A stretch of 57,197 bases of DNA from an uncultured Bacteroides sp. (lineage in GTDB: Bacteria > Bacteroidota > Bacteroidia > Bacteroidales > Bacteroidaceae): positions 1 to 57,197 of the forward strand of contig CALUOO010000007.1 in the NCBI GenBank assembly GCA_944322345.1, written 5' to 3'. How positions within the stretch are numbered: position 1 is the stretch's first letter; each line of letters opens with the position of its first letter. The position numbers were made by a program, and so were the translations under genes. This document shows positions 20,744 through 55,117 of this stretch, in pieces. The notes beneath the pieces are model-generated. The model searched no databases. It was not told the DNA's origin and saw only the letters and a list, made by a program, of their open reading frames with translations.

Positions 20744-21556
20744 TCAGACAATCGGATCGGGCGACTCGCCATCATCATCTCCGCCCGGGATGATGGGGTC
20801 GGGAGATTCGCCGCCACCGTCACCGCCCGAAGGGACTCCCGAAGCGCTGGATCCCGAGCCTGCTATATCAGCATATACCCCCACCGTACCGTTCACATCG
20901 TCGATAAAGGTATTGATCTCCTCCGTCGGCTGGACAATGGCATACGCATTCACCATCTGTACAATCTGCTCGTAGAGGCTGTTTGCCTGCCCCGTCACGT
21001 CGTCCGACTTCATATCACCCAGCTCCTGCTGCTTGTTCATCTCTTTCCCCTTACTCTCCAGCGCCTCGGCGAAAGCCTCGTTTGCCTCGCGCAGAGCTTC
21101 CACTTCGGCATCCAGCCCGAGCGCAGTCACGGCAGCTGTATTGGCTTCGGCCGACAACACCTCCAGCATTCCCTTTACTTCTGCCGTCTCCTTGCTATAT
21201 TCGTGCTGACCGATGCCGCGATAGGTAGTAAGCTGCGGATACAGCAGCCTTGCGGCATTCCGCTTCTCGCTCACCGGCGAAGTCCGATAAGCATTGACCA
21301 CGCTATTGATAACCCCCACAGCATTGTCGCGCACCTTGTCGGTGTCGGCAAGATTGGCAGTTGCAATGAACGAACGTTGGCGGTTGACTATGGAAGAGAG
21401 TGTATCCAATGCCTTTTTATAAGCAGGTTCCAGCGTCTCAATGTGAAGTTTGGCAGGCGTAGCCTTCTGGATGTACTTGTAAATCGTGTCGTGGAATAAT
21501 TTGCAAGAGCCGATAGTCATCTTGCTCATTGCGAATGTACGAATCTGTTTTACCAT
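20744..21556 (-). CDS. DUF6261-like protein with Gly/Asp-rich tail ending GESPDPIV
   Basis: The 270-residue protein has no signal peptide or membrane segment. Residues 1-210 are predicted mostly helical (for example LHIETLEPAYKKALDTL and EVEALREANEAFAEAL), resembling the Bacteroidetes DUF6261 family; this assignment is from memory. The last 40 residues are a low-complexity linker (GSGSSASGVPSGGDGGGESPDPI...GGDDDGESPDPIV) with two copies of ESPDPI. The terminal GESPDPIV is identical to the end of the HU-family protein at 54638-55117, although the rest of the two proteins is unrelated and the codons differ. Repeat array C lies 68 bp upstream, probably in the leader RNA. Function unknown; a role with nucleoid proteins is inferred. 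Confidence 0.75.
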   Translation of the reverse strand: MVKQIRTFAMSKMTIGSCKLFHDTIYKYIQKATPAKLHIETLEPAYKKALDTLSSIVNRQRSFIATANLADTDKVRDNAVGVINSVVNAYRTSPVSEKRNAARLLYPQLTTYRGIGQHEYSKETAEVKGMLEVLSAEANTAAVTALGLDAEVEALREANEAFAEALESKGKEMNKQQELGDMKSDDVTGQANSLYEQIVQMVNAYAIVQPTEEINTFIDDVNGTVGVYADIAGSGSSASGVPSGGDGGGESPDPIIPGGDDDGESPDPIV

Positions 21557-21623
21557 GATGAAAAAATTTAAGAACGTTAATACTGACAGTTAATTATAGC
21601 CCTATTTCTGATTGTTTTCCCAG

Positions 21624-21806
21624 CCCAACCGGTCGGGCGAGTCACCCAAGGGCTCCGGAAGCGTGCCCAACCGGTCAGACAAGCCGCCGGAGAGCTACGG
21701 AGACATCCCCAACCGGTCGGGCAAGCCACCCAAGGGCTCCGGAAGTGTGCCCAACCGGTCAGGCAAACCGCCGGAGAGCTACGGAGGCATCCCCAACCGG
21801 TCGGGC
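21624..21806. repeat. 42-bp (2 x 21) tandem array (array C)
   Basis: Four full units of 42 bp (21624-21665, 21666-21707, 21708-21749, 21750-21791) and a 15-bp partial unit each begin CCCAACCGGTC. Units 1 and 3, and 2 and 4, are near-identical, so the higher-order period is 84 bp. Each 42-bp unit divides into two 21-bp halves with related starts (CCCAACCGG, CCCAAGGG or CCGGAGAG). Because 21 is a multiple of 3, several frames stay open by chance. It lies upstream of the DUF6261-like gene (minus) and purL (plus). A near-consensus minus-strand promoter (TTATTTTG, 21857-21864) would place the array inside the DUF6261-like leader. Confidence 0.93.
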
Positions 21807-21960
21807 TGCTTCGACGGTAAAGATAATAAAATAAACCGGAATGTCGGCAGAATCTCCAAAATAAAAAGAATAAAAGACAAAATTCCACCAGTTTCCAACC
21901 ATCACCATTCCGTGAGGAATGACACAGACGGACATATGTGCCGAAAAGCCCCCGAAACGT

Positions 21961-21991
21961 TTTGCGTTGCAGCCAATTTACACTATCTTTG
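21961..21991 (+). promoter_or_regulatory. purL promoter
   Basis: TTTG (21961-21964) and TATCTTTG (21984-21991) are exactly 19 bp apart, a textbook Bacteroides promoter, 43 bp before the purL ATG. Confidence 0.8.
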
Positions 21992-22034
21992 CCCGCAGTA
22001 AACGAAACATATCAATCAATATAGCGATAAACTT

Positions 22035-25000
22035 ATGATTTCTTTCTACAGAACTCCTCAGAAAAGCGTGATAGCCGTAGAATCGGCAAACGCCATCGCA
22101 CAGGCAGACAGCGAAAAGCTCTGCTGGCTTTTTGGAGAAGCCAAACCCGAAAGTGAAGACCAACTGACCGGCTGCTTCGTCGGTCCCCGCAAGGAGATGA
22201 TCACCCCGTGGAGCACCAATGCCGTAGAAATCACCCAGAACATGGGCATCGAAGGCATCCTCCGCATCGAAGAGTACTTCCCCGTGAAGGACGAGAACGC
22301 CGACTACGACCCCATGCTGCAACGCATGTACAAGGGACTCGACCAACAGGTGTTCACCACCAACCGTCAGCCCGAACCCATCGTCTACATCGACGACCTC
22401 GAGGCATACAACGAACAGGAGGGACTGGCACTGTCGAAAGAAGAGATGGATTATCTGAAAAAGGTAGAAGCCGACCTCGGACGCAAGCTGACAGACTCTG
22501 AAGTATTCGGCTTCGCACAGATCAACTCCGAACACTGCCGCCACAAAATCTTCGGCGGAACATTCATCATCGACGGCGTAGAACAGGAATCCTCCCTCTT
22601 CCAGATGATCAAGAAGACCACACAGGAGAATCCCAACAAAATCATATCCGCCTACAAGGACAACGTGGCCTTCGCCGAAGGACCAGTCATCGAGCAGTTC
22701 GCTCCCGCCGACCACTCCAAACCCGACTATTTCCAGATAAAAGACATAAAGAGCGTCATCTCGCTGAAGGCCGAGACACACAACTTCCCCACCACCGTAG
22801 AACCCTTCAACGGAGCCTCAACCGGAACCGGAGGCGAAATCCGCGACCGTATGGGCGGTGGAAAAGGCTCGTGGCCGATTGCCGGTACAGCCGTCTACAT
22901 GACCTCTTATCCCCGCACCGACGAAGGCCGCACGTGGGAAGAACTGCTGCCCGTACGCAAGTGGCTCTACCAGACTCCGGAACAGATACTCATCAAGGCA
23001 TCCAACGGAGCCAGCGACTTCGGTAACAAGTTCGGACAGCCGCTTATCTGCGGTTCGGTGCTGACATTCGAACATCAGGAAGCCAAAGACGAACCACTCT
23101 ACGGCTACGACAAGGTAATCATGCTTGCCGGCGGTGTAGGCTACGGCACACAGCGCGACTGCCTCAAGGGCACCCCCGAAGCAGGCAACAAGGTGGTAGT
23201 GATGGGTGGCGACAACTACCGCATCGGACTGGGTGGAGGCTCAGTATCCTCCGTCGACACAGGCCGATACAGCAGCGGCATCGAGCTGAACGCCGTCCAG
23301 CGTGCCAACGCCGAGATGCAGAAGCGTGCCTACAACGTGGTACGTGCCCTCTGCGAAGAAGAGACCAACCCGGTAGTATCCATCCACGACCACGGATCGG
23401 CCGGTCACGTCAACTGTCTGTCGGAACTTGTAGAAGAGTGTGGCGGACTGATTGACATGAGCAAACTCCCCATCGGCGACAAGACACTCTCGGCCAAGGA
23501 AATCATCGCCAACGAGAGTCAGGAACGCATGGGATTGCTCATCAAGGAAGAAGCCATCGAACACGTACGCAAGATTGCCGAACGCGAACGCGCTCCGATG
23601 TACGTGGTAGGTGAAACCACCGGCGACCACCGCTTCGCCTTCCAGCAGGCAGACGGTGTACGTCCGTTCGACCTTGCCGTCGACCAGATGTTCGGCTCTT
23701 CACCCAAGACATACATGGTAGACAAGACCGTAGAACACCACTACTCAATGCCCCAATACGAACTGTCGAAGCTGCACGAATACCTGACCAACGTGCTTCA
23801 GCTGGAGGCTGTAGCCTGCAAGGACTGGCTGACCAACAAGGTAGACCGCTCCGTAACAGGAAAGATTGCACGCCAGCAGTGTCAGGGCGAGCTCCAATTG
23901 CCGTTGAGCGACTGCGGTGTGGTAGCTCTCGACTATCGCGGCGAAAAAGGTATCGCCACTTCACTGGGACACGCTCCACAAGCTGCACTTGCCGATCCGG
24001 CTGCCGGCTCCGTGCTCTCTGTCAGCGAAGCACTGACCAACCTTGTATGGGCTCCGCTTGCCGACGGACTGGACAGCGTATCACTCTCAGCCAACTGGAT
24101 GTGGCCATGCCGTTCGCAGGAAGGAGAGGATGCCCGCCTCTATACAGCCGTTAAGGCTCTGAGTGACTTCTGCTGTGCACTGCAGATCAACGTTCCTACC
24201 GGAAAAGACTCGCTGTCTATGACACAGAAATATCCGAACGGCGAGAAGGTTATCTCTCCGGGAACAGTCATCGTTTCTGCTGGCGGCGAAGTATCCGACG
24301 TAAAGAAAGTGGTATCACCCGTACTGGTCAACAACGAAAAGACAACGCTTTATCATATCGATTTCAGCTTCGACCAGTTGAAACTGGGAGGCTCGGCCTT
24401 TGCCCAGTCGCTTGGCAAGGTGGGAAGCGAAGTTCCTACAGTGCAGGATCCGGAATATTTCCGCGATGCATTCCTTGCCATACAGACACTTGTCAACAAA
24501 GGACTGATTCTTGCCGGACACGACATCTCTGCCGGAGGACTTATCACCACACTGCTTGAGATGTGCTTCTCTAACGTGGAAGGTGGTCTGGAAATCAATC
24601 TCGACAAGATGAAGGAGAAAGACCTCATCAAGATTCTGTTTGCCGAGAATCCGGGTGTAGTAATCCAAGTCAGCGACAAGCACAAAGAAGAGGTGAAGAA
24701 GATATTGGAAGATGCAGGTGTAGGCTACATCAAGCTGGGTAAACCTACCGACGAGCGCCACATCCTCGTAACGAAGGACGACGCAACCTACCAGTTCGGC
24801 ATCGACTACATGCGCGATGTATGGTACTCTACCTCCTACCTGCTCGACCGCCGTCAGTCTATGAACGGTTGTGCCAAGAAGCGTTTCGAGAATTACAAGA
24901 TGCAGCCGGTTGAGTTTGCCTTCATGCCCGAATTCAAAGGCAAGTTCTCACAATACGGCATTACTCCCGACCGACGTACACCAAGCGGCGTGCGTGCTGC

Positions 25001-25745
25001 CATCATCCGCGAGAAAGGAACAAACGGCGAGCGCGAAATGGCATACTCACTCTATCTTGCCGGCTTCGATGTGAAAGACGTCACTATGACCGACCTTATC
25101 AGTGGACGTGAGACACTGGAAGACGTAAACATGATTGTCTTCTGTGGAGGTTTCTCCAACTCCGACGTATTGGGATCGGCTAAAGGATGGGCAGGTGCCT
25201 TCCTGTTCAACCCAAAAGCCAAAGAAGCATTGGATAAATACTATGCACGTCAAGATACCCTGTCACTCGGAGTCTGCAACGGTTGCCAGCTGATGATGGA
25301 ACTCGATCTGATCAATCCGGAATATAAGAAAAAGGGCAAGATGCTGCACAACGACTCACACAAGTTCGAATCACGGTTCTTAGGAGTAACCATTCCTACC
25401 AACCGTAGCGTGATGTTCGGTTCGCTGAGCGGCAGCAAGCTGGGTATTTGGGTTGCCCACGGCGAAGGAAAGTTCTCATTGCCTTACGAAGAAGACAAAT
25501 ACAACATCGTTGCCAAGTACAGCTATGATGAGTATCCGGGCAATCCGAACGGCTCTGATTATTCTACCGCAGCAGTTGCCAGTGCAGACGGTCGTCACTT
25601 GGCCATCATGCCTCACCTCGAACGTGCCATCTTCCCATGGCAGAACGGCTGCTATCCTGCCGACCGTGTCAATAGTGATCAGGTGACTCCATGGATCGAA
25701 GCCTTTGTCAATGCACGCAAATGGATTGAAGAAAAGACCAAATAA
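22035..25745 (+). CDS. purL: Phosphoribosylformylglycinamidine synthase, single-chain form
   Basis: This is the fourth step of purine synthesis: FGAR + glutamine + ATP gives FGAM. The 1236-residue length fits the large single-chain type, which carries the PurS-like, synthetase and PurQ-like glutaminase domains in one protein. Synthetase motifs seen include INSEHCRHKIFGG, LKAETHNFPT and GGGEIRDRMGGGKG-like glycine loops. The C-terminal glutaminase has FCGGFSNSD and the nucleophile C1081 in SLGVCNGCQLMM. It has its own promoter and a terminator at 25788-25821. It is monocistronic and GC-rich in codon use. Confidence 0.97.
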   Translation: MISFYRTPQKSVIAVESANAIAQADSEKLCWLFGEAKPESEDQLTGCFVGPRKEMITPWSTNAVEITQNMGIEGILRIEEYFPVKDENADYDPMLQRMYKGLDQQVFTTNRQPEPIVYIDDLEAYNEQEGLALSKEEMDYLKKVEADLGRKLTDSEVFGFAQINSEHCRHKIFGGTFIIDGVEQESSLFQMIKKTTQENPNKIISAYKDNVAFAEGPVIEQFAPADHSKPDYFQIKDIKSVISLKAETHNFPTTVEPFNGASTGTGGEIRDRMGGGKGSWPIAGTAVYMTSYPRTDEGRTWEELLPVRKWLYQTPEQILIKASNGASDFGNKFGQPLICGSVLTFEHQEAKDEPLYGYDKVIMLAGGVGYGTQRDCLKGTPEAGNKVVVMGGDNYRIGLGGGSVSSVDTGRYSSGIELNAVQRANAEMQKRAYNVVRALCEEETNPVVSIHDHGSAGHVNCLSELVEECGGLIDMSKLPIGDKTLSAKEIIANESQERMGLLIKEEAIEHVRKIAERERAPMYVVGETTGDHRFAFQQADGVRPFDLAVDQMFGSSPKTYMVDKTVEHHYSMPQYELSKLHEYLTNVLQLEAVACKDWLTNKVDRSVTGKIARQQCQGELQLPLSDCGVVALDYRGEKGIATSLGHAPQAALADPAAGSVLSVSEALTNLVWAPLADGLDSVSLSANWMWPCRSQEGEDARLYTAVKALSDFCCALQINVPTGKDSLSMTQKYPNGEKVISPGTVIVSAGGEVSDVKKVVSPVLVNNEKTTLYHIDFSFDQLKLGGSAFAQSLGKVGSEVPTVQDPEYFRDAFLAIQTLVNKGLILAGHDISAGGLITTLLEMCFSNVEGGLEINLDKMKEKDLIKILFAENPGVVIQVSDKHKEEVKKILEDAGVGYIKLGKPTDERHILVTKDDATYQFGIDYMRDVWYSTSYLLDRRQSMNGCAKKRFENYKMQPVEFAFMPEFKGKFSQYGITPDRRTPSGVRAAIIREKGTNGEREMAYSLYLAGFDVKDVTMTDLISGRETLEDVNMIVFCGGFSNSDVLGSAKGWAGAFLFNPKAKEALDKYYARQDTLSLGVCNGCQLMMELDLINPEYKKKGKMLHNDSHKFESRFLGVTIPTNRSVMFGSLSGSKLGIWVAHGEGKFSLPYEEDKYNIVAKYSYDEYPGNPNGSDYSTAAVASADGRHLAIMPHLERAIFPWQNGCYPADRVNSDQVTPWIEAFVNARKWIEEKTK

Positions 25746-25787
25746 GTATTTTCATTGATACTTTTCTCAAATACAAAGTAAATTCTT

Positions 25788-25821
25788 CCCTCGAGGTCAA
25801 ACGACTTCGGGGGATTTTTTT
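25788..25821 (+). terminator. purL terminator
   Basis: CCCTCGAGGTC pairs with GACTTCGGGGG through G-U wobbles around a 4-nt loop, followed by a run of seven T. Confidence 0.75.
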
Positions 25822-25855
25822 ACTACTCCTCCCACTGAGAAATATCCCTCTACTT

Positions 25856-25950
25856 TCCAGTCTGTCAGCTAACCTTTCCCAACAGATTGGATAACCTTTG
25901 CCAATACGAGCCGTAACCTTTCCCAACATGTCAGCTAACCTTTCCCAACA
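25856..25950. repeat. 22-bp tandem array, same family as array A (array B)
   Basis: Four 22-bp units (25856-25877, 25878-25899, 25900-25921, 25922-25943) each end TAACCTTT, and a partial fifth follows. They are the reverse complement of array A units and show the same two subtypes (GGATAACCTTT and CAGCTAACCTTT). The array lies between the purL terminator and the promoter of the next gene, so it is probably not transcribed with either. In both arrays the flanking genes are co-directional and the repeat has the same orientation relative to them. Confidence 0.9.
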
Positions 25951-26042
25951 AAAGCACTCCTTTATTGTAAGCAAAGCGATGCTTTATATCAAGAAAAACA
26001 ATGTATTGCAGCTATTCTACCCTAAGAAAATATTTTATTTCT

Positions 26043-26072
26043 TTTGTTTTATCAAAATACTTTCTAATTTTG
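26043..26072 (+). promoter_or_regulatory. Promoter of the hybrid two-component regulator
   Basis: TTTG (26043-26046) and TAATTTTG (26065-26072) are 18 bp apart, 54 bp before the ATG at 26126. This supports starting the gene at 26126 rather than further upstream in the open frame. Confidence 0.65.
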
Positions 26073-26125
26073 TGAGTCTTTCTCTCTCAAGAAATGCGAC
26101 TACAACCTTTAAAATCATTACTTAC

Positions 26126-29100
26126 ATGAGAAGATGGCTTTTTATTATTATACTATTTGCTCCGATTCTTTGCATTGCACAAACATACAGATATTTGGGA
26201 GTAGAAGACGGACTGAGCAACCGGCAAGTCTATTGTATTCAAAAAGACAAGACAGGTTACATGTGGTTTCTTACCCACGAAGGCATTGACCGCTACAATG
26301 GCAAAGACTTCAAGCCCTATAAGCTGAAAGACAACGGAATAGAAGTCAACTCACGCTTAAATCTGAATTGGCTCTACATTGATTCGGCAGGAGTATTATG
26401 GGAAGTAGGCAAAAAAGGAAGTATCTTCAAATACAATCAGACATACGATAAATTTGAATGTGTATACAAACTTCCAGAAAGCAACAACAGTACCAATTCT
26501 TCTACTCCGGTCAGTTTTGGATGGATTGATAGAAATAATCACATCTGGCTTTGTAATGATGAAACAATTATCCTATATAACACTCATACTCAGCAGGTAC
26601 ATCCTATAAAGAATCAATTGCATGAGGCAATCACAGCTATTGAACAGATCAATGAAAATCAGTTTTTCATCGGAACAGAAACAGGAATTCACCAAGCCCG
26701 ACTGGGGAATAATACACTGGATATTATTCCTTGTGAAGCATTAGACAAGCTTCATCTACAAGTAAATGATCTTTACTTTGACACATCACTTGGGAAACTA
26801 TTCATAGGCACTTTCCAACGAGGAATCGCAATCTACGACACGACGAAAAGAACAACAGTCAAGCCATCATACAGTCTGTCGGATATCAGTATCTCGCGTA
26901 TAAAGCCTCTAAACAGGAAAGAGCTTCTGATAGCAACAGACGGAGGAGGTGTGTACAAGATGAATGCCGAGAATTATGATACTACGCCTTATATTATTGC
27001 CGACTACAACAGCAATAATGGCATGAACGGGAACAGTATCAATGACATCTATATCGACGAAGAAAACAGAATATGGATGGCAAATCATCCGATAGGAATC
27101 ACCATTCAGGATAATCGTTATTCTGACTATAAATGGATCAAACATTCTATTGGGAATCAGCAATCATTGGTCAATGACCAGGTAAATGCAATTATTGAAG
27201 ATAGCGAAGGAGACTTATGGTTTGGAACAAATAATGGAATCAGTCTGTTAAACTCCAAGACCGGCAAATGGACTTCTTTTTTAAGTTCATTTGGAGACAC
27301 CCACAACAACAGGAACCATACATTTCTAAAACTGTGTGAAGTAAAACCCGGTATTATATGGGCAGGAGGTTATTCATCTGGCATTTATGAAATCAACAAG
27401 AAAACTCTACAGAGTGAATACTTCACTCCTCTTAAATACACTGATGAGGACATAAAACCAGACAAATACATACGAGACATCTTTAAAGATTCATCCGGAT
27501 ATATATGGGTGGGAGGATATTATAATCTGAAGTATTTTGATATGAATACACAAGAAGTTAGACTTTATCCCGGGCTCAATTCCATTACCACCATTGCTGA
27601 AAAGAATGAAAAAGAGATGTGGATAGGAAGTGCCAACGGATTATACCTTTTGGATAAAAAGTCCGGAAAGTTCGAACAGCTTCATCTACCCGTAGAATCT
27701 ATCTACATCTATTCCCTGTATCAAGCTCAAAATGGACTGCTATACATAGGCACAGGTGGTTCTGGACTACTAGTATATAATCCTAATACAAAAGAATTTA
27801 CCCACTACTATACAGAAAATTCGGCATTAATATCCAACAATATCTACACCATCCTGTCAGATAAAGACAAAAATATATTGTTGGCTACCGAAAATGGGCT
27901 TGCCAGTTTTTATCCCCAAAGCAATACCTTCCATAACTGGACAAAAGAGATGGGACTTATGACAACCCATTTCAATGCCCTATCGGGTACACTACGTAAA
28001 AACAACTATTTCATACTGGGAAGCATTGACGGGGCTGTGGAATTTCACAAAGACATGAAACTTCCACAAAAATACACATCCAAAATGGTTTTAAGCGATT
28101 TCAAACTGTTCTACGAAACAGTTTATCCAGGGATGAAAGATTCTCCCCTACGAATGGATATTGACAAGACTAAGGAGTTAAAGCTAAAATATAATCAAAA
28201 CATCTTCTCACTGATGGTGTCATCCATCAATTACGATTATCCCTCCAATATACTGTACTCATGGAAACTTGAAGGATTCTACGAAGAATGGAGTACTCCT
28301 GGCACAGAAAATATCATTCGATATACCAATCTGGCTCCCGGGAAATATACACTTCGAATCCGTGCCGTATCCAATGAAGACAAAAGAATCATATTAGGAG
28401 AGAGAAGTATGGACATTATTGTTGCAAAACCATTCTGGCTATCCATTTGGGCATTATTACTCTACATAACACTAGGCATTTTTATCTTTACAATAGGACT
28501 GCGAATATTAATTCTAAAAAAACAACGGAAAATTTCAGAAGATAAGATACAATTCTTCATCAACACTGCCCATGACATACGTACACCGCTTACGCTTATA
28601 AAAGCACCCTTAGAAGATGTAGCCGAAAATGAGTCACTTACTAAAGAAGGAAGTGATAATATTGATACAGCCCTAAGAAATGTAAATGCACTACTCCAGC
28701 TGATTACGAACCTGATCAATTTCGAAAAAACAGATGTTTACACCTCAGAACTCTATATTTCAGAGCATGAATTGAGTGCTTTTATGAACGATATCTTCAA
28801 ATCGTTTCAACCATATGCAAAAGCTAAAAACATTACATTCACATATGAAAGCAATTTCCGTTACCTGAACGTATGGTTCGACGAAGAAAAAATGGAATCA
28901 ATCCTGAAAAATATTATTTCAAATGCTATCAAATACACTCCAGACAATGGTAGTGTCGCAATATGCGTCACAACAAGTAATGACTATTGGCAAGTAGAAG
29001 TAAAAGACACAGGAATAGGAATTCCGGATAAAGAACAGAAAAACCTGTTCAAACTTCATTTCCGAGGCAGTAATACAATTAATTCTAAAATAACAGGAAG

Positions 29101-30702: not shown

Positions 30703-30764
30703 AATTAGAGAATTCTCTCTGTCAAATCGCCTATGTTACATAATTAAAAACAAAAGTATTTGCA

Positions 30765-31316: not shown

Positions 31317-31320
31317 AAAA

Positions 31321-44823: not shown

Positions 44824-44910
44824 AATTTTACTTTTTCCCTAAACTAAAATCTCATAATCCTGTTATCCTAAATCTCTGTATTTTGCATTTTTTAAATCAT
44901 CTAGTTGCCG

Positions 44911-44936: not shown

Positions 44937-44996
44937 TATAAAACGTCTTTTTCACTTATTTTGTTCAAACCACTCTAGTAGCAGCCTATTTGGCTT

Positions 44997-45025
44997 CAAA
45001 ACTACAATAAGTGGGAAACTCCAAA
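44997..45025 (-). promoter_or_regulatory. Candidate promoter of the surface-lipoprotein operon
   Basis: On the minus strand TAGTTTTG (44997-45004) matches TAnnTTTG, with TTTG (45022-45025) 17 bp upstream. It overlaps the stop codon of the HU-wHTH gene, so the operon could be read from here or by read-through. Confidence 0.4.
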
Positions 45026-45622
45026 CCATCCAGGTACTGGGAAGTAAAAAGGTGACCGCAAATATCCAGGATGTGTCAATTTTCCCTCCTCAACCCTTTT
45101 TTGTAGACGACGAAGCGCAGTAGCTTTTCTTAATCCGCACAACGAACAAAGTTGACGGGTAGTAATGCATACATGCTCTTTAAAAAATTCCTCCAATTTT
45201 TTATCAATCTCTTCGTCGCTCAATTCCTGTGAACGATGCGTTTCTGCAACTTTCTCAAAAGTAACTCCTTTCAATTCTCTGAGTAAACTCTTTTCTGGTG
45301 TAAAAACAACTCCAGTACAATGTATGTTTTCTGCTCTAATCTCTTTGGGAGAAGATACAGCATGCGATTCAGCCTTTATACGAAATGACCCTATACCATC
45401 TACATGTACACTATTTCCTGAAGATAATTCTTGCTTAAAAACATTGATAAACTCTATAAAAACTCCCATAACATCACTTTTCCGCAAACTACTCCGAGAT
45501 TCTATCGTTTCTGCTAAATCTTCCAAAGTCACAGTATCACGTACAACCAAACGAGCATGATATTTATTCTCATCAGCATCTTTTGGTTGGGGAGTCAAAA
45601 AAAAATCATAAAGTGCATTCAT
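45002..45622 (-). CDS. HU-family (HU-HIG) DNA-binding protein with C-terminal wHTH
   Basis: The 206-residue cytoplasmic protein has an HU-like domain (about 20-125: ARLVVRDTVTLEDLAETIESRSSLRKSDV, then HVDGIGSFRIKAESH). A C-terminal segment (about 140-206: VCITTRQLCSLCGLRKATALRRLQKRVEEGKL) looks like a winged helix-turn-helix. This matches the HU-wHTH branch of the Bacteroidetes HU-HIG family. It lies immediately upstream of, and co-directional with, the surface-lipoprotein operon, so it may regulate it. Array F (45722-45790) lies 100 bp upstream, inside its predicted leader. The HU family is sure; its role here is inferred. Confidence 0.82.
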   Translation of the reverse strand: MNALYDFFLTPQPKDADENKYHARLVVRDTVTLEDLAETIESRSSLRKSDVMGVFIEFINVFKQELSSGNSVHVDGIGSFRIKAESHAVSSPKEIRAENIHCTGVVFTPEKSLLRELKGVTFEKVAETHRSQELSDEEIDKKLEEFFKEHVCITTRQLCSLCGLRKATALRRLQKRVEEGKLTHPGYLRSPFYFPVPGWFGVSHLL

Positions 45623-45721
45623 TATTCATTCAATTTTGTGTAATAAGTAAACTCAACATACTACTGTTCTAGTTGATTATTAATATCTCTTCATTAACCC
45701 ACATAAGCATCAAAATCTTTC

Positions 45722-45790
45722 TCATATATTGTGAATAAGAAAAATCATATTATATGAAATAACTAACTCACAATATGTGAAACAAGAAAG
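45722..45790. repeat. 23-bp periodic palindromic array (array F)
   Basis: Three 23-bp units (45722-45744, 45745-45767, 45768-45790) each begin with a palindrome-like core (TCATATATTGTGA, TCATATTATATGA, TCACAATATGTGA) followed by an A-rich stretch. The array lies between the HU-wHTH start (45622, minus) and its candidate promoter (45828-45835). The unit sequence is unrelated to the other arrays, but the period and placement are the same. The remainder of the 283-bp gap is AT-rich with nothing else clear. Confidence 0.7.
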
Positions 45791-45827
45791 ATAACAGTGC
45801 GAAAATAGAATCTTACTTCGAAAAAAG

Positions 45828-45835
45828 CAAAGATA
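45828..45835 (-). promoter_or_regulatory. Candidate promoter of the HU-wHTH gene
   Basis: On the minus strand TATCTTTG is an exact -7 match about 205 bp upstream of the start codon, which puts array F in the 5' leader. No good -33 element is seen. Confidence 0.45.
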
Positions 45836-45905
45836 AAGAACAAAGGCCCGAAAAAATTTCGAGTCTTTAACATTTTAATCCATCATTTCGATAAAACAAC
45901 AAAGA

Positions 45906-47360: not shown

Positions 47361-47379
47361 TTGTTCAAATTTCAATTCA

Positions 47380-49386
47380 CTATTTATACATAATCAATGC
47401 AGACTGTGCAGGAACCATAACATCTGTCCCATACAAAACACCTAATCCACGTATGTCTATATTTCCATCTTTACAGACTACAGTATATTTTCCTTCTGGT
47501 ACGACCAAACGAGCCGGAAGAGTACGAGAATTGAATGCCACTATTATCTCCCCCCAATCGTCACCATTAGCATGATCTTTCAGCTGAAAGGCTACCAGAT
47601 TATCCCCTTCTACAGACAAAAATTCCAAATGTTTCCTAACCTTATCTGCATCGCCCATCCTAAAAGCTGGATGTTTTTTACGAAGGTCTATCAGACGCTT
47701 ATAATACATCATGAGATCTCCATTCTTTGTCTTGTCTCTCCAATCAATTGCATTAACAGAATCCGGACTTTTATAACTATTATCCTCACCTTTCTTATCT
47801 CTCATCACTTCCTCTCCTGCATACAAAAAAGGAATTCCCTGAGAGGTAAAAACTACTGTCTGAGCAAGTTTATCCAAACGAACTAGCTGATCATCGGTAA
47901 TACCAGGCATAGCTGCCTTCAGACGATCGACCAAACAAAGCCCATCGTGACAAGAAACATAAGCAACCATCTGCACTGGCTGCAAAGCCCATGGAGACTG
48001 GCTATAATTTACTTCCTCATACCGTAACTGAGGATGCTGTATTCCACCTACAACACCAAACTTTACGCTCTCCTCTTGTCCCGAAATACCAGCAAGAAAT
48101 CCTCCCTTACGCTTATTCCCAACAGGGCCACAAAGTCCATCTCTTAATTCATCCGAGAAGGCTGCAATATCTGGCATACGAGAAATATTTTTCTTCATAG
48201 CCAATGAGTCTTGAGGATATTGAGGTGCTAAAGCAGCCCACCCTTCACCATAGACAACAATTGTGGGATCAATATCAGATAAGGCCTTTCTAACTGAATT
48301 CATCGTCTCTATATCGTGTACTCCCATCAAATCGAAACGGAAACCATCAATATGATATTCCTGTGCCCAATAACATACCGATTCTACTATAAACTTACGC
48401 ATCATAGGCCGCTCACTGGCTGTTTCATTGCCACAACCGGATCCGTTAGCAAGTGTTCCATCATCATTGTGACGATAAAAATATCCGGGAACGGTACGTT
48501 CGAAATTACTTTCACCCACATTGAATGTATGATTATATACCACATCCATAATGACACGAATACCTGCCCGATGAAGCGCCTGTACCATCTGCTTAAACTC
48601 CCTTATACGTACGGCAGGTTGATAGGGATCAGTAGCATATGAGCCCTCTGGCACGTTATAGTTCTGAGGGTCATATCCCCAATTATAAAGGTTCTTATCA
48701 AGTTGGGTCTCATTTATCGAAGCATAGTCGAAAGAAGGAAGTAAATGTACGTGAGTAACTCCTAACTCTATCAGATGGTCAATACCTGTCAGGTACTGAT
48801 CAGAATTCATCGTCCCATGCTCGGTAAGAGCAAGATACTTGCCACGATGCTTAACACCAGAAGTAGAGTCGGCCGAGAAGTCACGATGGTGCATCTCATA
48901 AATCATCATATCAGCCGGAGAGGATAATGGAGGACGTCGATCGGACTCCCATCCCTCAGGATTCGTTGTATTCCAGTCTATGATTGCAGCACGTTGTCCG
49001 TTTACTCCGACTGCACGCGCATTAATGCCCGGAGTATCTCCAAGCCATCGATCGTTGATTTTTACATTAAAGGTATAGAACTTTCCAAGCAAATCACGAT
49101 CGACTGTAACCGTCCATGTACCATCCTCACCGGGCTGCATCTTGATAGTCTCAAGGGGATGTCCGCCAATGCCTTCCTCATATAGCACCACCCGCACCTC
49201 ATCCGCCGGAGGTGACCAAAGCATAAAACGGGTAGACTGAGGGGTATATTCCATCTCTACAAGACTACCTTTACGAACCGGATAAAGCTCGTAAGAGGCA
49301 TAGGTTTTCTTCTTTTCCGTGCAACTCATAGCTGCTATTGACATACCAATTGTTATAACTCCTAAAGCGCGTCCCCAATTTTTCAT
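47380..49386 (-). CDS. Type I pullulanase lipoprotein (GH13)
   Basis: The 668-residue lipoprotein (MKNWGRALGVITIGMSIAAMSC, then TEKKK) cleaves alpha-1,6 bonds in pullulan or branched starch. A CBM48-like N-terminal beta domain precedes the barrel, with the type I signature YNWGYDPQNY. GH13 regions I-IV follow: DVVYNH, GFRFDLMG (nucleophile Asp), VYGEGWA (acid/base Glu) and VSCHDG. It lies 15 bp after ruvC and 19 bp before the ModF-like gene. It is probably cell-surface or periplasmic. Its 5' third is GC-richer than the rest. Confidence 0.93.
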   Translation of the reverse strand: MKNWGRALGVITIGMSIAAMSCTEKKKTYASYELYPVRKGSLVEMEYTPQSTRFMLWSPPADEVRVVLYEEGIGGHPLETIKMQPGEDGTWTVTVDRDLLGKFYTFNVKINDRWLGDTPGINARAVGVNGQRAAIIDWNTTNPEGWESDRRPPLSSPADMMIYEMHHRDFSADSTSGVKHRGKYLALTEHGTMNSDQYLTGIDHLIELGVTHVHLLPSFDYASINETQLDKNLYNWGYDPQNYNVPEGSYATDPYQPAVRIREFKQMVQALHRAGIRVIMDVVYNHTFNVGESNFERTVPGYFYRHNDDGTLANGSGCGNETASERPMMRKFIVESVCYWAQEYHIDGFRFDLMGVHDIETMNSVRKALSDIDPTIVVYGEGWAALAPQYPQDSLAMKKNISRMPDIAAFSDELRDGLCGPVGNKRKGGFLAGISGQEESVKFGVVGGIQHPQLRYEEVNYSQSPWALQPVQMVAYVSCHDGLCLVDRLKAAMPGITDDQLVRLDKLAQTVVFTSQGIPFLYAGEEVMRDKKGEDNSYKSPDSVNAIDWRDKTKNGDLMMYYKRLIDLRKKHPAFRMGDADKVRKHLEFLSVEGDNLVAFQLKDHANGDDWGEIIVAFNSRTLPARLVVPEGKYTVVCKDGNIDIRGLGVLYGTDVMVPAQSALIMYK

Positions 49387-49401
49387 AACTGCCTGCTCCT
49401 T

Positions 49402-49968
49402 TTATTTCACCCGATCGGGATTCTTTGATATAAAATCTTTCCAACTGCTATACCCTTTCTCGTGTACCGGACGCCCCATCTGAAGGAAGTGACAGTAGGC
49501 CGCAGCCAGTCCGTCGGTAGCATCCATAAAGACCGGCATGTCGTCTTTTGAAAAATGAAGAATGCGCTGAAGCATATCTGCCACCTGTTCCTTGGAAGCC
49601 TGCCCGTTGCCCGTAATGGCCATCTTGATCTTCAGAGGGGCATATTCCGTGATCGGGATGTCGCGGCTAAGGGCTACCGCCATGGCCACTCCCTGTGCCC
49701 GACCGAGCTTTAGCATCGACTGCACGTTCTTCCCGAAGAAGGGTGCCTCTATGGCAAGCTCATCGGGAAGGTAACTTTCGATAATGCTCAACACACGCTC
49801 GTGGATATGGCGAAGCTTCAGATAATGGTTGGCAAAGCGACGCAGGTCGATGATTCCCATTGCTACCAGCTCGGGCTTGGTGCCCTTTACACGCAGCACG
49901 CCGTATCCCATGATGGTGGTACCCGGATCTATCCCCAGTATGATCTTCTCCTTTACCGGCTGTATCAC
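49402..49968 (-). CDS. ruvC: Holliday junction resolvase RuvC
   Basis: The 188-residue endonuclease cuts Holliday junctions during recombination. Acidic residues of the RNase H-like fold are seen at LGIDPGTT (D14), [11 protein letters not shown] (Glu) and the final pair in [14 protein letters not shown]. The length is normal. Its start overlaps the stop of the DUF4286 gene by 4 bp, so translation is coupled. Confidence 0.96.
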
Positions 49969-50267
49969 TCTACAATCTCCATTAATGTAGGAAAGCCTAC
50001 CACCTTATCCTTGAATATTTTCTGCAGTTCGCCGTTAAGCTTCGCACCTTGCTCCAGATGCCAGCGGTGTAGCAGTGAGCTGCTTTCTACTTCCCACTGC
50101 AGGGAGTATGAGCTTCCCTCATCATGGTGACTCAGTATCCGACAGATACGGGGAGCACTCAGCGTGCCATGTTTCAACACTTCGGGAATATAACATTCCT
50201 TGATCCAAATGAGGAAATTGTCATGCACATCATCATCTACCTGAAAGGTTGTATTATAGACTAACAT
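49965..50267 (-). CDS. DUF4286-family protein
   Basis: The 100-residue cytoplasmic protein begins [19 protein letters not shown] and has an antibody-monooxygenase-like ferredoxin fold (Dabb/ABM-like) pattern of alternating strands and helices. It resembles the DUF4286 family. It is the first gene of the operon with ruvC, pullulanase and the ModF-like gene. No function is known. Confidence 0.82.
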
Positions 50268-50293
50268 ATCGCTTATTTATTGTTTTTATGGTG

Positions 50294-50301
50294 CAAACAT
50301 A
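50294..50301 (-). promoter_or_regulatory. Promoter of the DUF4286-ruvC operon
   Basis: On the minus strand TATGTTTG matches the -7 consensus 27 bp before the DUF4286 start codon. Confidence 0.55.
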
Positions 50302-50324
50302 GCAATTTAATCAGAATAATGTAT

Positions 50325-50332
50325 TATATTTG
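50325..50332 (+). promoter_or_regulatory. Promoter of tRNA-Ala
   Basis: TATATTTG matches the -7 consensus 45 bp upstream of the tRNA 5' end. Confidence 0.6.
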
Positions 50333-50376
50333 CCCCGTCAAATTAAGACTGCGGTTGTGTAAGCCTAAGGACAGAA

Positions 50377-50450
50377 GGGGCATTAGCTCATCTGGCTAGA
50401 GCGCGACACTGGCAGTGTCGAGGTGGCCGGTTCGAGTCCGGCATGCTCCA
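50377..50450 (+). tRNA. tRNA-Ala (anticodon GGC)
   Basis: The 74-nt tRNA begins GGGGCAT and its 3' arm is ATGCTCC plus discriminator A (one G-U in the acceptor stem). The D arm has TAGCTCA...CTGG, the anticodon loop is CTGGCAG (anticodon GGC, reading GCC) and the T loop is TTCGAGT. CCA is not encoded. A terminator follows at once. Confidence 0.95.
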
Positions 50451-50461
50451 CATTTTATGTA

Positions 50462-50497
50462 ACTCTCTGGGAGATGATTTCCCGGAGAGTTTTTTTG
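50462..50497 (+). terminator. tRNA-Ala terminator
   Basis: ACTCTCTGGGA (50462-50472) pairs with TCCCGGAGAGT (50480-50490) with one wobble, followed by a run of T to 50497. Confidence 0.85.
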
Positions 50498-50537
50498 TAT
50501 CCGCCAACCAGCCGGAACCTATGGATGCCTGTATCGG

Positions 50538-50573
50538 AAAAAAAGGGATGCACTGCATCACGCAGAACATCCC
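50538..50573 (-). terminator. Terminator of the GH78 gene
   Basis: On the minus strand GGGATG (50568-50573) pairs with CATCCC (50545-50550), followed by seven T. It lies about 48 bp past the stop codon. Confidence 0.75.
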
Positions 50574-50620
50574 CCAACTTTACATTATGACTTGAAAATG
50601 TAAAACCTACCGTATCTTAG

Positions 50621-53600
50621 TTACTTTCCACTGACTACAAACTCGTAACTGCCGGATTCCAGCTCAAGCACAGCCTTGTTGCGGGTGAACATAATGGACT
50701 GAACACCTTCGGATTTCACGGCTGCCTGCCCGTTTTCGGTTACCGTGGCATCTGCCGAAGGCAACTGAAGATGGAGTGAAGCTGTAGTGTTGGCAGGTAC
50801 GGATACCTTATATACGACAGAGCCATCGTCTCGCTTGGTCCATGCACTCTTAATGTCGCCATAGGGCGAAGCGAAGGAAGCGTTTACCCATGTGATATGT
50901 TCCTGTCCCTCGGGCAATACAGTGCGGTTGTCCGGCTCGGGACAAAGAAGGATGTGTTTGAAGCCCGGACGGTGTTCGTCAACATCTATGCCGGCCATCG
51001 TACGATACATCCACTCGGCCACAGCGCCGTATGAATAGTGGTTGAAAGAGTTCATCGTCACGGTGTTGAAGCCCTTTTCCTTGGTGTAAGAGTCCCATCG
51101 CTCCCATATCGTGGTAGCTCCCTGATCGATGCTATATAGCCATGAAGGGTTGTCACGCTGCAGTAGGAGGTTGTAGGCAACAGGGGTAGCACCATACTGA
51201 CTCAAGGTTTGATTGAGGATAGCCGTACCCACGAAGCCTGTGCTCAGGCGGTTGCCATTGGCGGCAATTTTGCCTACCAGTGTGGTAAGGGCGCGTTGCG
51301 TAGCCTCTTCCGAGGGGAGCAGGTTTAGCTTCAGCGCCAGCAGATAGGCCGTCTGGCTTTTTTCGCGCAGGTCGCCCTGTTCGTCGACGTAGCGTTTCTG
51401 AAACTCTTCCTTGATGTCTGCCGCAAGTTTACGGTATTGGCGCGACTTGATGTCGTACTCGTCGCCGCCCTCACGGCTGAGTGCTGCGGAGACTTTCTCC
51501 ATCAGTTGGGCTGTGTAGGCATAGTAGCAAACACTGATATAGCGGTTGGGAGTGGCTTCATAGGCAAGCCAGTCTCCAAATGCCGTGCCTGCTCCGTTGT
51601 AGTTAAAGCCATCTCCTACCTGTCGTGAGAGATACTCCATGTACTTCTCCATAGAGGTATAATTGTCTTCTAAGATGCCCCGATCGTTATACACCAGATA
51701 GATGGTCCAAGGGACTATGATACCGGCATCTGCCCATGCGGCCTGTCCGTGGGGTACTCCCCAACAGCTGGGAGCTACGCCCGGGTAGGCTCCATCCCCA
51801 AGTTGGTCATTGCGCATGTCGCCCATCCACTTCTCCAAGAAAGCCGCTACATTGGCATTGTAGGTAGCTGCGCGGCAGAACACCTGAGTATCTCCCGTCC
51901 ATCCAAGGCGTTCGTCGCGCTGCGGACAGTCTGTCGGGATGCTGAGGTAATTGCTTCTTTGCCCCCACAGAACGTTGCTGTAGAGCTGGTTGATGAGCGG
52001 GCTGCTGGTGGCGAAAGAAGAGCCTTCTTCGGTGACAGAGCCTACTACCTCGCCCTCGAGGGAGAGGATCTCGATGTCTTCGGTAGCCTTTACCTCACAG
52101 TACTGGAAGCCGAAGAAGGTGGTGGAAGGACGGAATTCCTCGCTTCGGCGGTCTCCCCGGAGGGTGTAGCGGAGCGTTGCCTTGGCCGTCCTAAGATTGG
52201 CTGTATAGATGCTTCCCGCAGGTCCGTCATCTCCTCGGGAAGGGTCGCCGGTGTCGTTAAGCATCTCTCCGAAGCGGAGAGTCATAGTGGTGCCGCGTTC
52301 GCCCTTCACCACAAAGTGTGGCCAACCTACCATATTCTGCCCCATATTGTAGACTGCCGTCTCGCCTTTCTTCAGCAGGATGGGTTGCGAACCTTTGATT
52401 TCGCGTGTCTTATTGATGCGTCTACCGGTCTCGCCATTATAGGTAACGATGCTGACAGGCTCCCTGTTGAGATAGGGGCGCATACGTACCGGGGGTCCTA
52501 CAAAGGCGGTCAGTTCGCCCTTGGGGTAAGTATTCTGTGCCGTTTTGAACCATTCCTTGTCGCGGAAGCTGGGTTTCATCCAGTTGCTCTCGAGGCGTGC
52601 GTCGTAGGTTTCGCCATGATAGATGTCGCCAAAGCGTACGGCGCCCGAGGTGGAAGAGAGCCACGAGAGGTCGGTAACAACCGTCTCCACAGTGCCGTCG
52701 GTATAGTTGACCACCAGCTTGGCTATGAATGCGGGAATCGTAGCGCGGTATTCGCCCTTGCTGACGTCGCCCGTAAACCATCCGCCGCTTACCTGTGCGC
52801 CGATGGCATTGAGCCCTTTCTGTAGCAGCGAGGTAACGTCGTAGCTCTGGTAATGAACGGTTTTCCGATAGTTAGTCCATCCCGGCTTCAGTTCGTCGTA
52901 CACCATGCTGCCATCCTTCTGAGGGGTTCCCACACGCTGTCCGTTGATAAACAGGTTGTAGATGCCCAGAGCCGAAGCATAGATGCGAGCCGAAGCCACC
53001 CGTCCGCTGAGCTTGAACTCCTTGCGGAACATTGGACAGCCCTTGTCTATAGGCTGGAATATACGATAGTCTCCCCCTTTCGAAAACACTTTCAACTTAT
53101 GATTGTTACCTATTGATATGACTTCTCCGCCTTCGAAGGGAGAGACCTTGCCTTCAAAGTCTTCTTTGAGAAGAACCTTTTTAACCGTACTGTTGCCCTC
53201 TTTCGAGTACTGTGTGAAGAGTACGTTATCAAAGACTGCCGTCTCTTCTCCGCTGGGTCCGTTGAAGGCGCGGAAGCCTACCGAACCGTTCTTGAGTTCC
53301 CCGAAGCTGTCTTCATACGTATCTACCAATACATTATTAATATAGGTCTCCACCTTCCCGTCTTTGGCATCCACCTTCAGGCGGAAAGGTTTCTCGAGCA
53401 GCTGTTCCTTTGTAAAATACTTCCCGATAGGCGTATCCGAGGTCCGAAGCTGTCCGCCCACATAGACGTGGCGGCGTATGAGGGGCTCAGACTCCTTGTT
53501 GAGGGTGATGACAGACCACATTCCCATGTTCGATGCGTCTTGTACGCCAAACAGCACAGAGGCATTGCCCTTGACGATAGCTACGTCTGACTCTAGTGTC

Positions 53601-54079
53601 ATCCATAGCCTGCCGGTGTTGATACCCGCCGGTTGCTCGGAAGAATCCTTAGGTATATCGGTAGCCTGAATCCACTCTGCGCCCGACCAACCCGAGTCTA
53701 ACAGTCCGGTTTCGAAAAAGGCGAGCTCCTGCGAGGTCTCTTCCTCGCCACGGTTGTTCCACGTAGTCACCCTCCAAAAGTAACGTTTCGAAGGTTGCAA
53801 GGCATCTCCCGCATAGCGTATGTGCAGGGATTCGTCGCTTTCTACCCTGCCCGATGTCCATTTCAAACGAGTGAAATCGGCATTTTCAGAGACTTCAATC
53901 CGATAGGCTTTCTGCCGAGTCCCCCTCTTCTCCGAAGTCATTTGCCAACTGAACCGGGGCGCTTCCGCATCTATCCCGACAGGATTCGTCTGATACTCTA
54001 CTTGAAGATTCACTACCGAAGCCTCAGCTGTGAGTATCGCTCCCCATAGGGCAAGAGTCGATAAAATGTTCCTTCTCAT
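50621..54079 (-). CDS. Alpha-L-rhamnosidase (GH78)
   Basis: The 1152-residue secreted enzyme (signal MRRNILSTLALWGAILTAEA) removes terminal L-rhamnose from glycans such as pectin side chains. An N-terminal FN3-like domain (LQVEYQTNPVGIDAEAPRFSWQM) is followed, at about residues 135-315, by an extra LamG/concanavalin-like domain (ETAVFDNVLF-type strands). The rhamnosidase beta domains and (alpha/alpha)6 barrel follow, with the GH78 signature DCPQRDERLGWTGD (about 715-730) and the later TIWERWDSY. The C-terminal beta domain includes TWVNASFASPYGDI. No SusCD pair is nearby. Promoter at 54168-54197. Confidence 0.93.
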   Translation of the reverse strand: MRRNILSTLALWGAILTAEASVVNLQVEYQTNPVGIDAEAPRFSWQMTSEKRGTRQKAYRIEVSENADFTRLKWTSGRVESDESLHIRYAGDALQPSKRYFWRVTTWNNRGEEETSQELAFFETGLLDSGWSGAEWIQATDIPKDSSEQPAGINTGRLWMTLESDVAIVKGNASVLFGVQDASNMGMWSVITLNKESEPLIRRHVYVGGQLRTSDTPIGKYFTKEQLLEKPFRLKVDAKDGKVETYINNVLVDTYEDSFGELKNGSVGFRAFNGPSGEETAVFDNVLFTQYSKEGNSTVKKVLLKEDFEGKVSPFEGGEVISIGNNHKLKVFSKGGDYRIFQPIDKGCPMFRKEFKLSGRVASARIYASALGIYNLFINGQRVGTPQKDGSMVYDELKPGWTNYRKTVHYQSYDVTSLLQKGLNAIGAQVSGGWFTGDVSKGEYRATIPAFIAKLVVNYTDGTVETVVTDLSWLSSTSGAVRFGDIYHGETYDARLESNWMKPSFRDKEWFKTAQNTYPKGELTAFVGPPVRMRPYLNREPVSIVTYNGETGRRINKTREIKGSQPILLKKGETAVYNMGQNMVGWPHFVVKGERGTTMTLRFGEMLNDTGDPSRGDDGPAGSIYTANLRTAKATLRYTLRGDRRSEEFRPSTTFFGFQYCEVKATEDIEILSLEGEVVGSVTEEGSSFATSSPLINQLYSNVLWGQRSNYLSIPTDCPQRDERLGWTGDTQVFCRAATYNANVAAFLEKWMGDMRNDQLGDGAYPGVAPSCWGVPHGQAAWADAGIIVPWTIYLVYNDRGILEDNYTSMEKYMEYLSRQVGDGFNYNGAGTAFGDWLAYEATPNRYISVCYYAYTAQLMEKVSAALSREGGDEYDIKSRQYRKLAADIKEEFQKRYVDEQGDLREKSQTAYLLALKLNLLPSEEATQRALTTLVGKIAANGNRLSTGFVGTAILNQTLSQYGATPVAYNLLLQRDNPSWLYSIDQGATTIWERWDSYTKEKGFNTVTMNSFNHYSYGAVAEWMYRTMAGIDVDEHRPGFKHILLCPEPDNRTVLPEGQEHITWVNASFASPYGDIKSAWTKRDDGSVVYKVSVPANTTASLHLQLPSADATVTENGQAAVKSEGVQSIMFTRNKAVLELESGSYEFVVSGK

Positions 54080-54167
54080 AATTCATCCGATATTGACGTA
54101 AGTATTAATAGTAGCAATCTCAGCATGACAACCCATGCTTTCCGCATCTTCAGTGATACGATTGATA

Positions 54168-54197
54168 CAAATATAAGGAAAATTAACCAGAATCAAA
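54168..54197 (-). promoter_or_regulatory. Promoter of the GH78 gene
   Basis: On the minus strand TATATTTG (54168-54175) and TTTG (54194-54197) are 18 bp apart, 89 bp before the rhamnosidase start. Confidence 0.65.
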
Positions 54198-54238
54198 AAA
54201 TAATCATCATAATATTGTCGTTATTTTAAAATTATTCT

Positions 54239-54246
54239 TAAATTTG
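54239..54246 (+). promoter_or_regulatory. Candidate promoter of the HU-Gly gene
   Basis: TAAATTTG matches TAnnTTTG on the plus strand. Transcription from here gives a leader of about 385 nt before the ATG at 54638, with array D (54502-54594) inside it. The long leader otherwise shows only GCCTTTAAGGC, an 11-bp palindrome near 54256-54266. Confidence 0.5.
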
Positions 54247-54501
54247 TGGATGAGAGCCTTTAAGGCAGTCGCTCTATGACATGATGGAAAGAGAAGGAAT
54301 GTCGGAACCTATAGTATCCTCAGTCCAACAGGATGAGCCGATAGCAGTAAAGCCATCGGAAAGTTGGGCAAAACAACAGAGAGAAATAACCTTAATAATA
54401 ATCAATAATACTTTACAGTTTGCCTTCGTACAGTCCGAGTCGTACTCCCGCACTCTACCCCTCTCAGAATAGGCTGTAGGCAGGTTTTCAGAGCAATTTG
54501 T

Positions 54502-54594
54502 CGAGAGTATCCCTCGAGCCCCTCGAGAGTATCCCTCGACATGCCCGAGAGTATCCCTCGACACCCTCGAGAGTATCCCTCGACATATCCGAGG
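54502..54594. repeat. 22-bp tandem array (array D)
   Basis: Four 22-bp units (54502-54523, 54524-54545, 54546-54567, 54568-54589) each begin CGAGAGTATCCCTCGA and end in a variable 6 bp; a partial unit follows. The constant 16 bp contains an imperfect inverted repeat (CGAGAG with CCCTCG), so each unit can form a small hairpin. The array ends 43 bp upstream of the HU-Gly start codon. The 6-bp ends are too short for CRISPR spacers. Confidence 0.93.
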
Positions 54595-54637
54595 CTTAGG
54601 CATACTGTAAGGGACAGTAAAGAAAGGAGACATTTAT

Positions 54638-55117
54638 ATGCTTTTCTGGAAGAGAGTACAGCAGGCTATAAATAAGAAATGGTATCCCCTAAGTGTTACC
54701 ATAGGAAAACCGGTTAATACCCAAGAGTTAGCAAACCGCATTGCGCGCGAAAGTACCGTATCGCCCGCCGATGCCCATGCCGTAATCCGAGCCATGCCTC
54801 AGGTGATGGCAGACTTTATGCAAGAGAGTCGCGCCGTTCACCTCGAAGGATTCGGATGGTTCCGCTACATCATTAAATCCAATGGGAAAGGGGTAGACAA
54901 GAAAGAAGACGTCAGTAACAAACAGATAGTCGGCATTCGTGTCCAGTTTACCCCCGAACGTGAGCGGGATATGGGAGGCGGCTATACAAGGTCGCTCGTA
55001 AGTGACGGCATCAGCTTTGCCGAATGGTTGGGCAAAGACGAAGACACAAACGATTTGCCGGGTGAAGAGAGCGGCGAAGAAGAAGGTGGAGGTGAGTCAC
55101 CCGACCCTATCGTCTGA
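54638..55117 (+). CDS. HU-family (HU-HIG) DNA-binding protein with Gly/acidic tail ending GESPDPIV
   Basis: The 159-residue cytoplasmic protein has an HU-like domain over residues 15-120 (KKWYPLSVTIGKPVNTQ, LANRIARESTVSPADAHAVIRA, then the DNA-arm strand HLEGFGWFRYIIKS and VQFTPERERD). A tail (about 130-159) is rich in Gly, Asp and Glu and ends GEEEGGGESPDPIV. It fits the glycine-rich branch of the HU-HIG family. A strong AAAGGAG precedes the ATG. The last eight residues equal those of the DUF6261-like protein at 20744-21556. Array D in its leader suggests self-binding or leader-based control. It is followed by a bidirectional terminator. Confidence 0.85.
   Translation: MLFWKRVQQAINKKWYPLSVTIGKPVNTQELANRIARESTVSPADAHAVIRAMPQVMADFMQESRAVHLEGFGWFRYIIKSNGKGVDKKEDVSNKQIVGIRVQFTPERERDMGGGYTRSLVSDGISFAEWLGKDEDTNDLPGEESGEEEGGGESPDPIV

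Follow-up and report, generated by a model that had tools for sequence, protein, structure and literature searches.

The bacterial single-stranded DNA-binding protein SSB, an OB-fold protein, has an acidic, proline-containing tip that ends in phenylalanine, is the same across bacteria and binds several partners. C-terminal addresses carried by several proteins of one cell are also found in the encapsulin cargo peptides and in the C-terminal signals of the type IX secretion system (T9SS). Among the HU-like proteins, Pfam describes the HU-HIG family (PF18291) in one line as an HU domain fused to a winged helix-turn-helix (wHTH), an Ig or a Gly-rich motif, whereas a genome-specific terminal peptide common to other families is not part of that description. 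In 2017, the Aravind group reportedly proposed that the expansion of this family in Bacteroidetes helps to deal with genome invaders. Here we describe such a terminal peptide, ESPDPIV (hereafter the tag), on an HU-HIG protein and a DUF6261 protein (PF19775) encoded in a 57,197-nucleotide stretch of DNA from an uncultured Bacteroides sp. (the window; contig CALUOO010000007.1 of GenBank assembly GCA_944322345.1), together with its counterparts in other genomes of the family.

Both window proteins belong to their families by profile (HU-HIG, 66.4 bits against a gathering cut-off of 26.2, E = 3.2e-18; DUF6261, 137.3 bits against 27, E = 5.3e-40); the paralogs of the HU-HIG protein are likewise members, and the Gly-rich form is part of that family's name. 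The DUF6261 protein gives an all-helical AlphaFold2 model with a mean predicted local distance difference test (pLDDT) score of 91 and a low-confidence coil tail from about residue 231 (block means 52-65), and a PDB fold search with this model returned nothing at E <= 0.001. The features on which the comparison rests are the following.

20744..21556, minus strand: DUF6261 protein, 270 aa, helical to about residue 231, with a low-confidence tail ending GESPDPIV
20744..20767, minus strand: terminal ESPDPIV tag and stop of the DUF6261 gene (pattern search)
20792..20812, minus strand: internal near-copy of the tag, reading GESPDPI with IPGG behind it (coordinates derived from the translation)
54638..55117, plus strand: HU-HIG protein, 159 aa, with a Gly/acidic tail ending GESPDPIV (profile and translation)
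55094..55117, plus strand: terminal ESPDPIV tag and stop of the HU-HIG gene (pattern search)
45002..45622, minus strand: tagless HU-HIG paralog of the longer form, serving as an internal negative control (profile and translation)

The initial annotation had noted that these two proteins of unrelated folds end alike, and both translations bear this out, the DUF6261 protein ending in GGGESPDPIIPGGDDDGESPDPIV and the HU-HIG protein in GGGESPDPIV. The codons for the shared tail differ between the two genes (GAGTCGCCCGATCCGATTGTC versus GAGTCACCCGACCCTATCGTC), so the match is kept at the protein level, as had been claimed, and the second copy reported inside the DUF6261 protein is present in a form that is not identical to the terminal one. 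There is strong support for the further suggestion, that a flexible Gly/acidic linker with a fixed end hints at a shared partner, and the pattern reaches well past two genes. In the 3.23-Mb, 35-contig genome of the window (G000), a pattern with E, P, D, I, V and the stop fixed and residues 2 and 5 partly open gave 21 matches, every one of them ESPDPIV, against 0 for the reversed pattern, which places the ending beyond chance. The carriers are 8 DUF6261 proteins, 10 HU-HIG proteins (nine full-length and one fragment at a contig edge), 2 HU-DUF4469 proteins (HU-DNA_bdg/DUF4469) and 1 Phage_tail_2 tail-tube protein. Counted by family, the tag ends 8/9 of the DUF6261 proteins found by profile (the ninth, L044, is without it) and 9/9 of the full-length Gly-tailed HU-HIG proteins; nine HU-HIG proteins ending GESPDPIV have 24-46% identity to the window protein over the whole alignment. 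It is absent from the HU-HIG proteins whose C-terminal part is longer (L001, L002, L006) and from short HU proteins (L013, L014). Within one genome, the same 4-8 residues thus follow a flexible Gly/acidic linker on about 20 unlinked proteins with HU-like and all-helical DUF6261 folds. Among the neighbours of the tagged genes at 19 loci of G000, read by eye, no family recurred, save for like neighbours at L016/L029 and at L022/L031. The genes flanking L016 and L029, which encode the tagged HU-DUF4469 proteins, appear fimbrillin- or lipoprotein-like by eye.

The tag had been likened to the acidic tip of SSB, and in form the two are indeed alike: an acidic flexible linker leads to a short terminal peptide, which in the tags seen here often reads x-Pro-hydrophobic (SPL, NPLG, YPM), and if the inference of a partner holds, the tag would also serve as a common docking point. 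As a claim of membership, however, the likeness fails. The tags are genome-specific, differ between close species, sit on many proteins and end in IV, LA, AA, LG or others. Ile-Val stands in place of a terminal Phe on both window proteins and on the tagged DUF6261 and Gly-tailed HU-HIG proteins counted above, and the carriers are HU-HIG, DUF6261, HU-DUF4469 and Phage_tail_2 proteins rather than OB-fold proteins. Unlike the carriers of encapsulin and T9SS signals, the tagged proteins here are HU-like, DUF6261 and phage tail-tube proteins.

Across genomes, tail identity tracks the genome more than it tracks body similarity. For HU-HIG, 112 non-wHTH proteins were chosen by PF18291 and not by the tag, with tagless ones included, and without identical proteins of the same genome, proteins shorter than 100 aa or the tag-found proteins of two genomes discussed below (G171 and G162). 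The last four residues were equal in 90/230 same-genome pairs with less than 30% body identity; the corresponding counts for pairs from different genomes were 106/4071 below 30% identity and 9/66 at 60% or above. Same-genome tail matches numbered 173; over 2000 shuffles the mean was 21.8 and the highest count 45. The commonest last three residues of a protein's own genome were found on 91/138 sampled HU proteins, and in 17/24 genomes (at least three sampled HU proteins each) at least three HU proteins had the same last three residues. The tails of DUF6261 proteins match those of HU-HIG proteins from the same genome in many genomes, a trait that sets them apart from what the family is described by. 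When a match was taken as at least three of the last four residues being equal, 35/55 DUF6261 proteins from 16 genomes had one among the HU tails of their own genome, compared with 2.5% for mismatched genomes; a count of 35 was reached by 0/5000 permutations (maximum 23). This comparison excluded identical duplicates, DUF6261 fragments below 150 aa and one false open reading frame (ORF) of G138, and was confined to HU proteins of at least 100 aa.

SPDPIV followed by a stop was found in 1/151 genomes of the family, namely G000 itself, and in 0/150 others when serine was scanned as a TCN codon only. Rarity elsewhere, which the initial annotation had held to speak against a shared system, is therefore literally the case for this ending, but only because relatives have other shared endings. 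DUF6261 is present in 8/41 genomes of the genus sample, G000 included, and in 4/7 of the others one ending is common to DUF6261 and the genome's own HU-HIG proteins: LPDPLA in G155, SPL in G174, YP[MI]E in G175 and GIG in G173. Other genera of the family show the same agreement, with DGEL in G036, EDGGL in G058, DEG[IV] or similar in G008 and GGLAG in G095, and HU-HIG proteins of further genomes end in EAPDPTV, ETPDPAA, EAPDPAA, ESPDPTL, ENPLG or IVDDPTA. GESPDPIV itself recurs on a metagenome-derived Bacteroides contig, whose HU-HIG protein is 68% identical, and an HU protein on a Bacteroides finegoldii plasmid ends in GEAPDPAA. At the plasmid loci L406, L409 and L410, annotated HU genes lie near genes for an N-acetylmuramoyl-L-alanine amidase and a 'smalltalk protein', and two HU copies on Segatella copri plasmids have the ending NGDGLE in common.

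Two relatives, G171 and G162, differ in a single tag residue. A pattern that accepted either Ala or Thr there and was fixed elsewhere gave EAPDPAA in 16/16 matches in G171 and ETPDPAA in 19/19 in G162; 30/35 matches had a locus and were read, and 29/30 of these loci matched the HU body profile, the exception (L275) spanning 29 residues from its first Met. In each genome, three HU-HIG proteins were also read without recourse to the tag, and 3/3 agreed with their genome's tag. The Ala/Thr difference was present in 10/10 reciprocal ortholog pairs (their first 110 residues being 86-98% identical), the pairs being drawn solely from genes bearing either tag, so that untagged orthologs could not appear. 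We read this as selection that acts on the terminal peptide, with unlinked loci changing in step.

The tagged tail-tube gene of G000 sits among terminase, portal, capsid, protease and tape-measure genes. In G164, the tail-tube protein ends in IVDDPTA, which also ends 2/3 of the non-wHTH HU-HIG proteins read in that genome, and capsid, portal and terminase genes adjoin it. In both genomes the tag codons of the phage gene are unlike those of the host genes. The tail-tube protein of G058 ends in EDGGL, the tag of its host, and is adjoined by genes for a tape-measure protein and an extracytoplasmic function (ECF) sigma factor; none of the nine ORFs tested beside it matched a capsid or terminase family. 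This cluster (L413:7690-13678, on G058:C13) encodes the ECF sigma factor, the host-tagged tail tube, a tail chaperone-like protein and the tape-measure protein, and by its gene content it is possibly a phage-tail-like, tail-only particle with its own sigma factor. Three relatives of the G000 tail tube on viral contigs have other endings and no tag. Searches of viral collections for ESPDPIV and a stop returned 8 contigs, every one with short frames, and those for ESPDPTL and GEENPLG returned 8 contigs with short frames only or none read; both sets were set aside. EAPDPAA and ETPDPAA were found on 14 contigs, on 9 of which HU-like genes were seen by eye; the others have short, unrelated or unread frames.

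From these sequence comparisons, we conclude that the terminal tag is genome-specific and held uniform within a genome by selection, and we consider it probable that it serves for docking, with one co-evolving partner as its reader. A shared trans-acting partner would best account for a largely uniform, genome-specific tail that stands on a disordered linker behind unrelated bodies and recurs on some phage proteins. Recruitment through docking would be our first choice for the role of this partner. A single host partner, acting in trans and co-evolving with the tag, would bind it; the body of each tagged protein would set the target, presumably nucleic acid and perhaps its own private upstream array, and the tail would bring all tagged proteins to the same partner. 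Any drift in the specificity of the partner would then place all tails under selection to keep up, and phages exploiting or blocking this partner might copy the tag.

Several observations weigh against this interpretation. The last two residues vary in G002 (EAPDP followed by two variable residues), and DUF6261 proteins without a match to an HU tail occur in G002 (1), G183 (2), G188 (1) and G140 (5). G012 has 17 DUF6261 matches, and the 10 tails read have no ending in common; three weak PF18291 matches in that genome had tails outside the comparison. There is little common ending in G153 (2/5), and ENPLG is found in five genomes, so this tag is not unique to one species. The host tag stands on just 3/9 of the tail-tube proteins found, in 7 genomes, and the way in which the ten ortholog pairs were drawn also limits what they can say. 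The wHTH-type HU-HIG control, in which the last four residues were equal in 1/12 pairs, is tagless partly by construction and not a fully independent set, because the C-terminal profile that defines it had as its seeds long HU-HIG proteins with few Gly and acidic residues. Finally, no partner protein that reads the tails was found.

Alternatively, the tag could be a C-terminal degron, or could shield its carriers from degradation, with a protease or its adaptor as the reader, in which case the carriers would share their turnover and not a working partner. Bacterial C-degrons are usually short C-terminal peptides on disordered tails, the last residues of many tags are small or hydrophobic (AA, LA, IV, TL, LG), and tagged prophage proteins would have host turnover in common. 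However, a proline close to the end is atypical of known degrons, and since general proteases are conserved, concerted change from genome to genome would not be expected. We regard this alternative as unlikely. Quite improbable, in our view, is an export or surface-sorting signal on proteins that act outside the cell. In G134, an HU-HIG protein (L345) and a DUF6261 protein (L323) both end in the InlB B-repeat domain PF18998, with no short tag; this domain is typical of surface proteins, and the DUF4469 fold is Ig-like according to its Pfam description. Against export, the tagged tail-tube proteins belong to a class that assembles in the cytoplasm, the sorting signals of one machine are usually kept across a genus, and inspection of the N-termini by eye, with no predictor run, showed no signal sequence.

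Non-adaptive homogenisation, by which gene conversion or the copying of a 3' cassette would spread one tail through a genome, appears very improbable. Some loci do have the exact tag DNA in common (L015, L020), and in G171 and G162 the synonymous identity at the tag is 0.53 and 0.55, against 0.37 and 0.35 expected from codon usage, so that some sharing at the DNA level is possible there, a further point against selection as the sole cause of uniformity. In G000, by contrast, the tag codons vary close to the expectation (0.42 versus 0.375; fragment L018 was excluded from the count), and the tag serine is encoded by both TCN and AGT codons. The third base of the Ala/Thr codon is kept in 6/10 of the ortholog pairs, whose 3' flanks match in 9/10. 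Linkers and downstream DNA are mostly unlike, although the pair L022/L031 has common downstream DNA, and the internal near-copies of the tag, present in 7/8 tagged DUF6261 proteins of G000, have not been made uniform, none being identical to the terminal tag. Common descent or chance, with the tail inherited along with two families that are both multi-copy, deserves almost no credence, given that the folds are unrelated, that tail identity follows the genome over the body, that the reversed pattern gave no match, and that both the HU-HIG pair statistic and the matching of DUF6261 to HU tails contradict it.

The initial annotation also placed an array of 21-22 bp just upstream of each window gene and tied the arrays to the tagged system. 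Tandem Repeats Finder (TRF) located the two arrays below, neither of which had a match elsewhere in the G000 sequence searched.

21624..21806, no strand assigned: tandem array with a 42-bp period before the DUF6261 gene
54501..54593, no strand assigned: array with a 22-bp period just before the HU-HIG gene

The array before the HU-HIG gene is thus as described, but the period before the DUF6261 gene is 42 bp and not 21-22 bp. Counted by family with duplicates retained, arrays with a period of 39-44 bp precede 44/63 DUF6261 genes, and arrays of 19-24 bp precede 55/142 non-wHTH and 23/42 wHTH-type HU-HIG matches. In G000, an array of 40-42 bp stands before 8/8 tagged DUF6261 genes and one of 20-23 bp before 5/9 full-length tagged HU-HIG genes. 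The arrays, with periods of about 40-43 bp for DUF6261 and 22-23 bp for HU-HIG, are therefore real and a trait of the families, but they do not go with the tag, because wHTH-type HU-HIG matches, which are tagless, have them too. A coupling of array and tag as a rule was dropped for this reason, and since only 9/30 of the tagged loci read in G171 and G162 have a 19-24-bp array within 700 bp upstream. Arrays as sites shared between loci were likewise ruled out, as none of the 14 gene-associated units tested matched beyond its own locus in the G000 sequence searched. A natural reading would be that these private arrays are sites of self-regulation.

As gene-sense RNA, the DUF6261 array of the window folds into one long hairpin (z -5.4 against shuffles), while the folding of the HU-HIG array is not clearly better than that of its shuffles (z -1.4). 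The arrays of 11 sources gave no match to known RNA families at gathering thresholds; the only matches were two tRNAs, in the window. A -7 promoter box (TAnnTTTG) lies 5' of 6/44 DUF6261 arrays, against a shuffle mean of 0.9 and a maximum of 4, and between array and start codon in 8/44, so transcription of the arrays does not follow from the presence of the box. In contrast to the gene-private arrays, a dispersed 22/44-bp repeat with the core TAACCTTTCCCAACA recurs in the genome: upstream of a heparinase-like gene and before a hybrid two-component regulator gene (window 9681-9812 and 25865-25950), and at a third genomic place (L162, about 5009-5050). A 21-bp tandem repeat at 4014-4091 of the window overlaps the start of a 132-aa ORF (4074-4472).

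There is nothing new in short docking motifs at the C-terminus. We know of no case, however, where the products of dozens of unlinked genes from unrelated families end in one peptide, constant inside a genome but different in sister species, that resident phage genes have copied. Literature queries, which did not use the letters of the tag, found no such tag, and the passages of PMC10434189 consulted hold nothing on it. If the tag is a docking tag, it might further act as a species-specific "password", a tail code of 4-8 residues by which a dedicated reader would separate the cell's own nucleic-acid-bound proteins from foreign ones, and this code would drift as one under an arms race, with resident phages forging it on their tail tubes; we put this extension forward tentatively, as rather unlikely. 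The one-residue Ala/Thr difference between the two relatives lends itself to a natural tag swap. For the biology of gut Bacteroides, the tag provides a sequence-level handle on the large and functionally dark expansions of HU-HIG and DUF6261 proteins.

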